Of a stretch of 34,870 nt of DNA, positions 12,416 to 31,713 are shown one piece after another. The notes beneath the pieces are model-generated. The model did not search any database, was not told where the DNA came from, and saw nothing but the letters and a program-made list of their open reading frames with translations. Numbering within the stretch: position 1 is the first letter of the stretch; each line of letters starts with the position of its first letter. The position numbers and the translations under genes were made by a program. The DNA comes from Sulfurospirillum sp. (GTDB lineage: Bacteria; Campylobacterota; Campylobacteria; Campylobacterales; Sulfurospirillaceae): contig JALSLU010000147.1 in assembly GCA_026988125.1 (NCBI GenBank), positions 1 to 34,870 of the forward strand, given 5' to 3'.

Positions 12416-14014
12416 ATGGTAGAAGTAAATAGTTTGACAATGAGATTCTCTTCAAAAGTTCTTTTTGAAGATATAAATCTCAAGCTTGATGCTGGTAAAA
12501 GATATGGTTTGATTGGTGCAAATGGTGCAGGAAAGAGTACATTTTTAAAGATTTTAAGTGGCGAGATTGAACCAACTAGCGGAAATGTCTCAATACAAAA
12601 TGGCTTAAAAGTTGGGGTTTTGAGCCAAGATCAGTATGCCTATGAGGATTTTACTCTAAAAGATGCAGTTATGATAGGCAATAAAAGACTATATAATGCT
12701 ATAAAAGAGAAAGAAGAGCTCTATATGAATGGAGACTTTGAAAATGAAAAGGTAAACGAAAGACTAAGTGAGCTTGAGATGATTTGTGCCGAGGAGGACC
12801 CGACTTATGAAGTCGATGTAAATATAGAAAAAATCCTATGTGCTTTAGGATTTCCTATAGAGACTCACAACAATCTTATGAGCTCACTAACAAGTGCTGA
12901 GAAATTCAAGATTTTACTTGCTCAAGTATTGTACCCAAAGCCCGATGTTTTGTTTTTAGATGAGCCTACAAATAATCTTGATTTAGAAGCAATTGCTTGG
13001 CTAGAGGAGCAGTTAAAAAGGCATGAGGGGACTATGGTTGTAATTTCCCATGATAGACACTTTTTAAATGCAGTTTGCACAAATATCCTTGATGTGGATT
13101 ATAAAAAAATTAGAGAGTTTAGTGGAAATTATGATGATTGGTACATTGCGGCAAATCTCATAACTAAGCAAAAAGAGTTAGAACAAGCCAAAAAACTTAA
13201 AGAGAAAGAGGAGCTTGAAGCCTTTGTTAGAAGATTTAGTGCAAATGCTTCAAAAGCCAAACAAGCAACATCAAGACAAAAGAGACTTGAAAAGCTAAAC
13301 ATAGAGGACTTACAAAGCTCAACTAGAAGAGAGCCAAGCATTGTCTTTAAATCTAAAAGAGAGATTGGCAATGAGGTTTTAGAGTTGGTAGATATTTCTA
13401 AATCTTATGGCGATAAAGAGGTTTTAAAAAACTTTAACTTAAAAGTGGAAAAGGGCGACAAGATAGCCTTGATTGGACCTAATGGTATTGGAAAGAGTAC
13501 CATTTTAAATATAGCCATGGGTGAATTAAAAGCAGATAGTGGCGAGGTAAAGTGGGGAGCTACGATTGAGCCTAGCTATTTTCCACAAAATACAACAGAG
13601 ATTATAGATGAGGAAGTCGAGTTATTTGAGTGGCTTCAGGCTTATGATGATAAAAATGATTTAGATGAGATAAGAAAGTGCTTAGGAAGAATGCTCTTTT
13701 CAGGCGAGGAGCAGAAGAAAAAGGCAAAAGATTTAAGTGGTGGAGAAAAACATAGAATAATGCTCTCAAAAATGATGCTCCAAAGGGGTAACTTTTTAGC
13801 CTTAGATGAACCAGATAATCACCTAGACCTAGAAGCCATTATAGCTCTTGGCGAGGGGCTTTTTAAGTTTAGTGGATGTGTTATCTGTGTTACACACGAT
13901 AGAGAACTCATAGATGCATTTGCCAATAGGATAATAGAGCTAAAAAGTGATGGAAGTGTAGTTGATTTTAAAGGAAATTATGAAGAGTATAAGGAGTGGC
14001 TGGAAATTAAATGA
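12416..14014 (+). CDS. ybiT: ABC-F ATPase, YbiT type
   Basis: A soluble tandem-ATPase protein of 532 residues, the size of E. coli YbiT, with matching opening (RYGLIGANGAGKST, ~29-42), FTLKDAV segment and the inter-domain linker FVRRFSANASKAKQATSR (~264-281). ABC-F proteins act at the ribosomal E site, modulating translation or stalled ribosomes; they are not transporters. The first domain's signature is degenerate (LTSAEKFK instead of LSGG), as in YbiT; the second is intact (LSGGEKHRIML). The second Walker B/D-loop reads DEPDNHLD rather than the usual DEPTNHLD. Stop and next start overlap (ATGA), so the AEC transporter is translationally coupled. Confidence 0.9.
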   Translation: MVEVNSLTMRFSSKVLFEDINLKLDAGKRYGLIGANGAGKSTFLKILSGEIEPTSGNVSIQNGLKVGVLSQDQYAYEDFTLKDAVMIGNKRLYNAIKEKEELYMNGDFENEKVNERLSELEMICAEEDPTYEVDVNIEKILCALGFPIETHNNLMSSLTSAEKFKILLAQVLYPKPDVLFLDEPTNNLDLEAIAWLEEQLKRHEGTMVVISHDRHFLNAVCTNILDVDYKKIREFSGNYDDWYIAANLITKQKELEQAKKLKEKEELEAFVRRFSANASKAKQATSRQKRLEKLNIEDLQSSTRREPSIVFKSKREIGNEVLELVDISKSYGDKEVLKNFNLKVEKGDKIALIGPNGIGKSTILNIAMGELKADSGEVKWGATIEPSYFPQNTTEIIDEEVELFEWLQAYDDKNDLDEIRKCLGRMLFSGEEQKKKAKDLSGGEKHRIMLSKMMLQRGNFLALDEPDNHLDLEAIIALGEGLFKFSGCVICVTHDRELIDAFANRIIELKSDGSVVDFKGNYEEYKEWLEIK

Positions 14015-29114: not shown

Positions 29115-30212
29115 ATGGATATAGAAAGAAAACTAAAATCTAAAATTAGATTAAATTTTGAAGAAGCTCTAGAACTGTATAATCTCGATCTTTTTACTTT
29201 AGCAAAGTATGCTAATGATATTAGAGAAGAGCTTTATGGTAAAAAAGCTTTCTTTAATATAAATAGACATATAAATCCAACAAATATTTGTAAGGATGTG
29301 TGTAAATTTTGTGCTTTTAGTGCAAATAGAAAGAATCCAAATCCTTATACAATGAGTCATGAAGAGATTTTAGATGAAGTAGAAAAGGCAGTTTTAAGTG
29401 GAGCTAAAGAGGTTCATATTGTATCAGCACATAATCCTGAATGTGGACTTGATTGGTATATAGATGTATTTAAAAAGATAAAAAAGAGCTATCCAACTTT
29501 ACATGTGAAGGCTTTAACTGCAGCTGAGATAAATTTTTTAGCTAAGGAGTATAATCTTAGTTTTGAAGATGTTATAGATAAAATTTTGGATGCAGGGGTT
29601 GATTCATTGCCAGGAGGAGGAGCTGAAATTTTTGATGAAAAAATTAGAGAGTATATCTGTAAAGGTAAGGTTAGCTCAAAAGATTGGTTAAAGATTCATG
29701 AGCTTTGGCACAAAAAATGCAAATACTCAAACTCTACAATGCTTTTTGGTCATATTGAGTCAAGAGCAAATCGCATAGATCATATGTTAAGACTAAGAGA
29801 CTTACAAGATAAAACAGGTGGCTTCAATGCTTTTATACCATTGGTATATCAGAGGGAAAATAACTATCTTAGGGTTGAAAATTTTTTAAGTTCCGTTGAG
29901 ATTTTAAAAACATATGCTATTAGTAGGTTGGTATTGGATAATATACCACATATAAAAGCTTACTGGGTTACATCAACTATAAATTTAGCATTGATTGCCT
30001 TAGAGTTTGGTGCGGATGATTTAGATGGAACTATTCAAAAGGAGTCAATTCAATCAGCTGCTGGTGCAAAAAGTGCAAATGGTATGCAATTTGGTGAGTT
30101 TTTAGAACTTATTAGTACAAGTGGCTTTATTCCAGTTCAAAGAGATAGTCTCTATAATGAGATCAGTACCTATGATGACAATCATAGAGACGACCGCAAG
30201 GTTGTGCTTTAG
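29115..30212 (+). CDS. mqnE: Aminofutalosine synthase (futalosine menaquinone pathway)
   Basis: Radical SAM enzyme making aminodeoxyfutalosine. 365 residues: CxxxCxxC at C59, C63, C66 (NICKDVCKFCAF), KALTAAEI (~162), PGGGAEIFD, HIESRANRIDHMLRLRDLQD in two parts and LDNIPHIKAYW (~279-289). These separate it from MqnC. The last 12 codons and stop come from the first 77-bp repeat unit. Without the repeat array the frame would run on (D-D-N-Q-I-K and so on) and stop in the azgA start region, so this C terminus is probably secondary. The catalytic body is unaffected. Confidence 0.9.
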   Translation: MDIERKLKSKIRLNFEEALELYNLDLFTLAKYANDIREELYGKKAFFNINRHINPTNICKDVCKFCAFSANRKNPNPYTMSHEEILDEVEKAVLSGAKEVHIVSAHNPECGLDWYIDVFKKIKKSYPTLHVKALTAAEINFLAKEYNLSFEDVIDKILDAGVDSLPGGGAEIFDEKIREYICKGKVSSKDWLKIHELWHKKCKYSNSTMLFGHIESRANRIDHMLRLRDLQDKTGGFNAFIPLVYQRENNYLRVENFLSSVEILKTYAISRLVLDNIPHIKAYWVTSTINLALIALEFGADDLDGTIQKESIQSAAGAKSANGMQFGEFLELISTSGFIPVQRDSLYNEISTYDDNHRDDRKVVL

Positions 30213-30415
30213 TAGAGTGTGAATTTTTGTTGGGCTTTGCTCAACAAAAAGATGACAATCATAGAGACGACCGCAAGGTTGTGCTTTAGTAGAGTGTGAA
30301 TTTTTGTTGGGCTTTGCTCAACAAAAAGATGACAATCATAGAGACGACCGCAAGGTTGTGCTTTAGTAGAGTGTGAATTTTTGTTGGGCTTTGCTCAACA
30401 AAAAGATGACAATCA
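30174..30415 (+). repeat. 77-bp tandem repeat, three identical units plus 11 bp
   Basis: Units at 30174-30250, 30251-30327 and 30328-30404 are identical by eye. The partial fourth, GATGACAATCA (30405-30415), equals the start of each unit. Each unit holds the mqnE terminal codons and stop, a small stem with a GNRA-type loop (ACGACC-GCAA-GGTTGT) and a terminator-like stem (TTTTTGTTGGGC, loop TTT, GCTCAACAAAAA). Looks like a 66-bp insertion flanked by an 11-bp duplication, then amplified. Confidence 0.92.
30224..30250 (+). terminator. Terminator-like stem, first of three identical copies
   Basis: TTTTTGTTGGGC pairs with GCTCAACAAAAA (12 bp, one G-U) around TTT. Identical copies lie at 30301-30327 and 30378-30404. 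They stand between mqnE and azgA, so three successive stems separate the two genes. The stem's own A/T arms provide U-rich ends on both strands. Confidence 0.6.
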
Positions 30416-30432
30416 AATAAAAAGGAGAAATC

Positions 30433-31713
30433 TTGGATTTTTTTAAACTACAACAACACGGTACAAATCTTAAAACGGAGTTTACTGCAGGATTTACAAC
30501 ATTTTTAACTATGATGTATATAGTCCCAGTAAATGCAATCATTATGAGTAAAACAGGTATGGATTTTGGAGCATTGGTTACTGCAACAGCACTCATAACC
30601 ATTTTTTCAACGATCTTGAATGGCTTATGGGCAAATACACCTATAGCAATGAGTGTTGGAATGGGTTTAAACGCTTATTTTACTTTTGGACTTGTACTTG
30701 GTATGAAAATTCCTTGGCAGAGTGCATTAGGTATAGTTTTCATATCTGGTGTACTATTTTTGGTACTCTCTTTTACAAAATTTAGAGTTTGGATTATGCA
30801 GAGTGTTCCACACGATTTAAGAAGAGCAATTAGCGCTGGTATAGGAGCATTTATTGCATTTATTGGACTTAAAAGTATGGGAATGGTAGTAGCTGATCCT
30901 GCGGTACTAGTTGGTTTAGGAAATTTCAAGGATCCAAATGTGCTGCTTGGTGTTTTAGGATTGGTACTTGTTTTTGCTTTGTATGCTTGGAAAGTTAAAG
31001 GTGCTTTTATTTTGGCAGTTGTTTTAACTGCTATTGTTGGTTGGGTATTGGGTATCGCAGATGCTCCAAAAGAGATATTTTCCCTACCATCTTCTATATC
31101 TCCTATTGCTTTTAAATTAGACATAATGAGCGCTCTCTCTTTAGCATTTCTACCAGTAATTATAACCTTTTTAATAACTGATATGTTTGATTCACTAGGT
31201 ACTTTAGCAGGTGTTGGATTTAGAGCGGGTCTTTTTAAAGAGGATGGAAAAGATTTACAAAAAACTTTAGAAGCAGATGCAGCTGCAACTGTAGCTGGTT
31301 CACTAATGGGAGTTTCGACAACTACAAGTTTTATTGAGAGTGCTAGTGGTGTTGAAGAGGGAGGAAGAACAGGATTAACAGCAGTATTTACAGGTCTATT
31401 TTTTATATTTACCCTTTTTATGATGCCACTTTTTCAGGCTATACCAGAAAATGCTATTTATCCAGTATTAGTTATGGTTGGAATTTTGATGTTTAGTGAG
31501 TTAGCTCATATCAATTTTAAAGATATTGCAACAAATGTTGCAACATTTTTAATAGTTATTATGATGCCTCTTACATTTTCTATTACAAATGGATTAGCTT
31601 TTGGTTTTGTGGCATATTTACTTATAAAATTGTTAAAAAGGGAGTTTGAAGAGATAAACTTAGGGATTATTTCGCTTGCTTTAATTAGTTTTATAGTTTT
31701 TATTGTTCATTAA
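30433..31713 (+). CDS. Purine (adenine/guanine/hypoxanthine-type) permease, AzgA-like
   Basis: 426-residue NCS2-superfamily transporter of the AzgA branch, with about 12-14 membrane segments. It has EFTAGFTTFLTMMYIVPVN near the N terminus, SVGMGLNAYFTF (~75), the TDMFDSLGTLAGVG segment (~249) and STTTSFIESASGV (~296). It starts at TTG 30433, with AAGGAG 5 bases upstream; an ATG start is not available nearby. Forms a purine salvage unit with the phosphoribosyltransferase 9 bases downstream. The same pair follows mqnE in C. jejuni (Cj1368-Cj1370) from memory. Confidence 0.88.
   Translation: MDFFKLQQHGTNLKTEFTAGFTTFLTMMYIVPVNAIIMSKTGMDFGALVTATALITIFSTILNGLWANTPIAMSVGMGLNAYFTFGLVLGMKIPWQSALGIVFISGVLFLVLSFTKFRVWIMQSVPHDLRRAISAGIGAFIAFIGLKSMGMVVADPAVLVGLGNFKDPNVLLGVLGLVLVFALYAWKVKGAFILAVVLTAIVGWVLGIADAPKEIFSLPSSISPIAFKLDIMSALSLAFLPVIITFLITDMFDSLGTLAGVGFRAGLFKEDGKDLQKTLEADAAATVAGSLMGVSTTTSFIESASGVEEGGRTGLTAVFTGLFFIFTLFMMPLFQAIPENAIYPVLVMVGILMFSELAHINFKDIATNVATFLIVIMMPLTFSITNGLAFGFVAYLLIKLLKREFEEINLGIISLALISFIVFIVH

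Follow-up and report, generated by a model that had tools for sequence, protein, structure and literature searches.

As a rule, the small dispersed repeats of bacterial genomes are strand-neutral, and for some a preference for the gaps between convergent genes is known. The element considered here is a unit of ~70 nucleotides (nt), which stands in three tandem copies between mqnE, the gene for aminofutalosine synthase, and a gene for an AzgA-like purine permease in a 34,870-nt stretch of Sulfurospirillum sp. DNA (contig JALSLU010000147.1; hereafter the window, i.e., the whole stretch that was analysed). In position it resembles the TAACTGA direct repeats of marine Beggiatoaceae (PMC4679880), its nearest published analogue in that respect, which likewise precede genes without a shared function, ribosomal protein genes included; those repeats measure 7 nt, whereas the present unit carries two covarying hairpins, often has its own Shine-Dalgarno sequence and also occurs before 16S ribosomal RNA (rRNA), and the TAACTGA heptamer is not present in the unit sequence. 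The REP and REPIN repeats with their RAYT genes (PMC3116915) are likewise short hairpin repeats, many per genome and sometimes in tandem, but the present units are strictly oriented towards start codons, the genome of the window has no Y1 transposase, and the 20 Y1 loci examined in its relatives are free of units. Similar in organisation are the BOX elements of Streptococcus pneumoniae (PMC3049150), i.e., modular stem-loops in variable tandem number that may affect their neighbours, although BOX is over-represented between convergent genes and the present element lies in sense at start sites. Intrinsic terminators, too, place a G+C-containing stem-loop in an intercistronic gap; they end in oligo-U, whereas the present stem has a T-run on its 5' side and an A-run on its 3' side. 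No published description of the element was found in the open-licence literature, a restriction which makes this weak evidence.

We consider it probable that the array arose by recent amplification of a non-autonomous, mobile 5'-leader element, dispersed through its order of the Campylobacterota, that acts as RNA and keeps the start region of the following gene open. TRF delimits the array at 30174-30415 (period 77, 3.1 copies, 100% matches, zero indels), i.e., three identical units of 77 base pairs (bp) at 30174-30404 and 11 further bases, and a repeat search returned an 88-nt sequence three times at 100% identity with spacings of 77 and 77. The core motif has three matches in the window, all within the array, against 0.01 expected by chance. 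A preliminary description of this DNA had proposed three identical units, recent tandem amplification and a stem with a GNRA loop; the units are confirmed, their identity supports the amplification, and the stem is hairpin A, whose GCAA loop appears together with the 12-bp hairpin B in the minimum-energy fold of the unit (z = -4.17). The window genome (G000) is a draft of 176 contigs, in which unit copy numbers are lower bounds and the array count of three may be inexact; in the closed genome of a relative (G009), four-copy arrays occur besides single units. The features of the locus are as follows.

30174-30250, plus strand: unit 1 (GATGACAATCATAGAG, hairpin A, GTGCTTTAGTAGAGTGTGAA and hairpin B), from TRF and the repeat search; covariance-model match at 30189-30259, 84.4 bits
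30251-30327, plus strand: unit 2, identical to unit 1, from TRF and the repeat search; covariance-model match at 30266-30336
30328-30404, plus strand: unit 3, identical to unit 1, from TRF and the repeat search; covariance-model match at 30343-30413
30405-30415, plus strand: final 11 nt, the element tail GATGACAATCA that closes unit 3 (matching the opening 11 bases of a further 77-bp period), from TRF and the family-conserved tail GA(T/G)GACA
30190-30205, plus strand: hairpin A of unit 1, ACGACC GCAA GGTTGT, again at +77 and +154, from fold and covariation
30206-30225, plus strand: conserved core GCTTTAGTAGAGTGTGAATT of unit 1, again at 30283-30302 and 30360-30379, from the motif count and invariant alignment columns
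30224-30250, plus strand: hairpin B of unit 1, TTTTTGTTGGGC TTT GCTCAACAAAAA, again at 30301-30327 and 30378-30404, from the repeat search, fold and covariation; not a terminator
29115-30212, plus strand: mqnE (aminofutalosine synthase), whose open reading frame (ORF) ends inside unit 1, the final ~36 coding nt and the stop being element sequence
30422-30427, plus strand: Shine-Dalgarno AAGGAG of the downstream gene, a little 3' of the array, from sequence
30433-31713, plus strand: downstream gene, an AzgA-like purine permease with a TTG start, from its ORF; the name azgA stems from the preliminary description, and no NCBIfam family matched

Matches to the AzgA-like gene occur in 38 of the family's 44 genomes. 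Apart from the array, TRF reports a single tandem repeat in the window, a weak 23-bp repeat at 13284-13327 with two copies that are 81% alike.

The unit is by no means restricted to this locus. A similarity search of the window genome found the 77-mer at 23 places, and a covariance model, built from an alignment of 28 units from this genome and its relatives, found 53 copies at ~25 loci (E up to 0.1), of which 49 have E below 0.001. Five congeners hold 39, 6, 20, 37 and 46 covariance-model copies, the closed genome G009 holds 20, and 'Campylobacterota bacterium isolate M_MetaBat.86' (JAADIZ) holds 108; 'Sulfurospirillum sp. isolate W8' has 6, at hit coordinates identical to those of congener G002. 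Across the order, 54 of 199 sampled genomes, in many families, were matched (E up to 1e-4), and the others gave none. The reading of the unit as a device of mqnE and azgA, as originally put forward, is contradicted by this genome-wide and order-wide dispersal; the 23 places, found by the genome search that the same description had suggested, overturned it. No Rfam 15 family was matched by the unit at gathering score. Two exact patterns retrieved no true copy from viral contigs, one of them giving two matches, both in coding sequence that lacks hairpin B, and the other none, and carriage by viruses was rejected on these grounds. Within the window genome, arrays coincide with contig ends on C2, C24, C44, C82, C84, C123, C131, C134, C141, C146, C150, C152, C53 and C159, and the repeat probably fragments the assembly there.

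Each unit consists of hairpin A, a conserved GCTTTAGT, a linker ending in GAATT, hairpin B and the tail GA(T/G)GACA, and all subfamilies have hairpin A, GCTT(T/C)AGT, the linker, GAATT, hairpin B and the tail in common. Subfamily S2, to which the window's units belong, reads AGTAG(A/C)G(T/C)GTGAATT...AAGATGACA, the Shine-Dalgarno of the downstream gene itself following the tail; subfamily S1 reads AGTGAGAGGAATTT...AAAGGAGACA and brings its own Shine-Dalgarno (AAAGGAGACA, ~5 nt and ATG); subfamily S3 reads AGTCGCGAGGAATTT...AAAGGGGACA. A more distant form precedes dnaK and 16S in genus g3. Both-sided changes occur in 13 of the 16 base pairs, 96.6% of cells are paired as against 71.7% in shuffles, and the covariation score of 0.712 exceeds those of shuffles (0.234) and of slid controls (0.211 or less). 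Among 76 distinct hairpin-B sequences, sense-strand G.U outnumbers A.C by 38 to 3, an excess which suggests that the pairs form within the sense transcript. Furthermore, purine-rich strands are conserved on both sides of hairpin B in the alignment of 28 units.

Some units of the window genome depart from this plan. Three loci (L044, L046 and L055) have an extra hairpin nested in the loop of hairpin B (GGGCTTTCTCACAGAGAGTGCAAGCACAAGGCTC), while two others (L064 and L067) have arrays of a shortened unit made up of hairpin A and GCTTTAGTGAGAGGAATT without hairpin B, the former closing with a full unit before rpmJ and the latter stopping at a contig end. Many final S2 units, that at window positions 30405-30419 included, end in ATG ACA NNN AAA TAA just 5' of the next Shine-Dalgarno, which is a candidate four-codon ORF and may be a by-product.

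The position of the units relative to genes was counted automatically for those arrays with at least 320 nt of flank on both sides (n = 60). In 53 of these, a sense start that has a Shine-Dalgarno-like motif follows the 3' end at a distance of 60 nt or less, while an antisense start with such a motif at the other array end was found in 0 of 60; the remaining seven show neither start by the strict rule, several of them having a sense start slightly further off or with a weak Shine-Dalgarno. Genes directly 3' of units include recR, rplL, dnaK, atpA, guaB, clpB, thrB, nadC and rpmJ in the window genome, and rplL, tuf, rpoZ, feoA and rpe in G009 (names assigned mostly by eye from protein starts); they have no common function. 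The relatives display the same pattern of units ahead of gene starts, and nearly all of 20 loci from other families read GGAATTT, hairpin B, AAAGGAGA, 5-6 nt and a start codon.

A unit also lies directly 5' of 16S rRNA in the window genome (L060, G000:C24:104-173, minus strand) and in the related genome G005 (L157). At this leader the relatives of genus g3 have either a diverged form or no unit, G026 has one filled and one empty 16S leader, and G031 has two, each with a different variant. By eye, the spacing from tail to ATG seen in S1 recurs before the ATGG that opens the 16S region, where no translation starts. An origin of the element from a 16S leader, suspected from L060, was rejected, many relatives having 16S leaders without it.

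Most genomes of the family have a short gap without any unit between mqnE and its downstream neighbour (e.g., TAAAGGAGAGAAGAGTGGG in G029). S2 units fill it in G000 (three) and G012 (two), and it further holds one S1 unit in G004, two units in G017, the first of them truncated, and one decayed unit in G005. Variability in copy number, as anticipated from the window, is thus found between species, which have 0, 1, 2 or 3 units here. Sister species differ, G003 being empty and G004 filled, and the mqnE tree requires four changes of the gap, at least three of which are forced by well-supported branches. Mobility of the element is well supported by presence/absence polymorphism at orthologous sites, both here and at the 16S leaders, of which we infer insertion to be the cause.

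The end of mqnE bears a trace of such an event. The mqnE family profile stops at residue 353, before the unit-derived end, and the mqnE proteins of relatives terminate at the matching tyrosine or at most two residues from it, while the terminal ~12 residues in the window genome (DDNHRDDRKVVL) are unit sequence in frame after the native end. From this comparison, element sequence is taken to have replaced the mqnE stop at the window locus and to have extended the protein by ~12 residues, up to a stop of its own. The preliminary description was therefore correct in that the ORF ends in unit 1; the stop is not the original one, and it is found there because of the insertion.

In the proposed mechanism, copies would enter the gaps between successive genes, oriented so that transcription runs through the unit in sense and the tail comes to lie at or just 5' of the Shine-Dalgarno and start codon, or of the 16S rRNA 5' end. 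As RNA, hairpin B would tie up the bases around it and keep the ribosome-binding site accessible, and start sites would therefore tolerate the element or even benefit from it; S1 units would supply the Shine-Dalgarno, S2 units would rely on that of the gene, and tandem copies would arise through local duplication. The unit may accordingly be a structured leader that can be inserted without silencing a gene, with a function at the RNA level and an effect on translation or stability.

In favour of this account, the stretch from the Shine-Dalgarno to codon 4 is predicted to be more open in element genes, with a mean unpaired value of 0.64 for 56 of them and 0.45 for 200 controls; the comparison is a prediction, and AT-rich tails may partly explain the difference. 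Other observations weigh against the account. The G.U counts are phylogenetically non-independent, which renders their p-value (1e-8) too optimistic; presence/absence by itself cannot tell insertion from deletion; and no target-site duplication can be defined, as the empty and filled sites are too diverged. Nor did a mobilising enzyme emerge: the Y1 transposase (PF01797) was not found in G000, which is 98.6% complete, the covariance model finds 0 units in the 62 kb that surround 20 Y1 genes in relatives (~1.5 kb on each side) even at E 0.5, and RVT_1 was not found in G000, G001, G003, G004, G005 or G009.

Of 20 element-rich genomes, 16 encode Y1 transposases; the four without are G000, G021, G023 and G131. 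A REP/RAYT system was rejected for the lack of Y1 in G000 and of units at the 20 Y1 loci of relatives, and a retroelement-borne repeat for the lack of a reverse transcriptase in most element-rich genomes tested. No terminal inverted repeats beyond hairpins A and B are apparent by eye in the unit. The Y1 genes of relatives (L289-L300) are RAYT-like and encode 250-350 amino acids; several are flanked by GGGGTCAG / CTGACCCC, i.e., bordered by a GGGTCAG/CTGACCC motif as expected of REP-associated genes, and these repeats look like a separate REP family.

Other explanations can be set against the same data. It is possible, and proposed only tentatively, that the element is a mobile ribosome-binding-site cassette, i.e., a ~70-nt transcribed element copied specifically to the junction before translation starts or 16S rRNA, together with a hairpin and in many cases a Shine-Dalgarno, through a process that recognises start regions and involves no known transposase. 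An ordinary selfish hairpin repeat of the REP or MITE kind without an RNA role, whose position and orientation merely reflect where insertions are tolerated, seems unlikely: dispersed, variable and clustered hairpin copies are typical of such repeats, and the downstream genes share no function, but neither the bias of 53 to 0 for sense at starts nor the one-strand G.U excess is expected of strand-neutral DNA, and the pneumococcal BOX, RUP and SPRITE repeats are instead enriched between convergent genes (PMC3049150). A processing site, at which an RNase cut would give a defined 5' end before a gene or 16S rRNA and separate the cistrons of an operon, would suit the location of the units, between genes read in the same direction and immediately 5' of 16S rRNA, as well as the conserved purine-rich strands that flank hairpin B. 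We nevertheless regard it as improbable, because the stems, at ~6 and ~12 pairs, are short for an RNase III substrate and because many 16S leaders in the family are without the element, which is hence not needed for 16S maturation.

According to the preliminary description, the unit carries a terminator-like 12-bp stem, and several terminators between mqnE and azgA would tune read-through by copy number. The differing number of units at this gap between species fits that model and the 12-bp stem is real, but it is not terminator-like: hairpin B has five T before it and five A after it (TTTTT...AAAAA), on either strand, so that no U-run follows it on either, and a terminator scan of both strands returned 0 sites between 29800 and 30700. 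Hairpin B is thus ruled out as a Rho-independent terminator and, since units also precede essential genes and 16S rRNA, which a terminator in the leader would switch off, such tuning is very improbable. Chance or an artefact of assembly, the latter raised in the same description as a possible refutation, is the least credible explanation of all, since, despite a draft of 176 contigs with many arrays at contig ends, the closed genome G009 has both single units and four-copy arrays and the family is present in independent assemblies of many species.

The element forms an order-wide family situated in sense, with a covarying structure, at the starts of essential genes (dnaK, atpA, rplL, guaB and tuf) and before rRNA. 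It is probably behind the contig breaks in these genomes and the C-terminal tail of mqnE. The pairs of empty and filled sites make the mechanism testable, and the family would show how a repeat rewrites the leaders of many genes at once.
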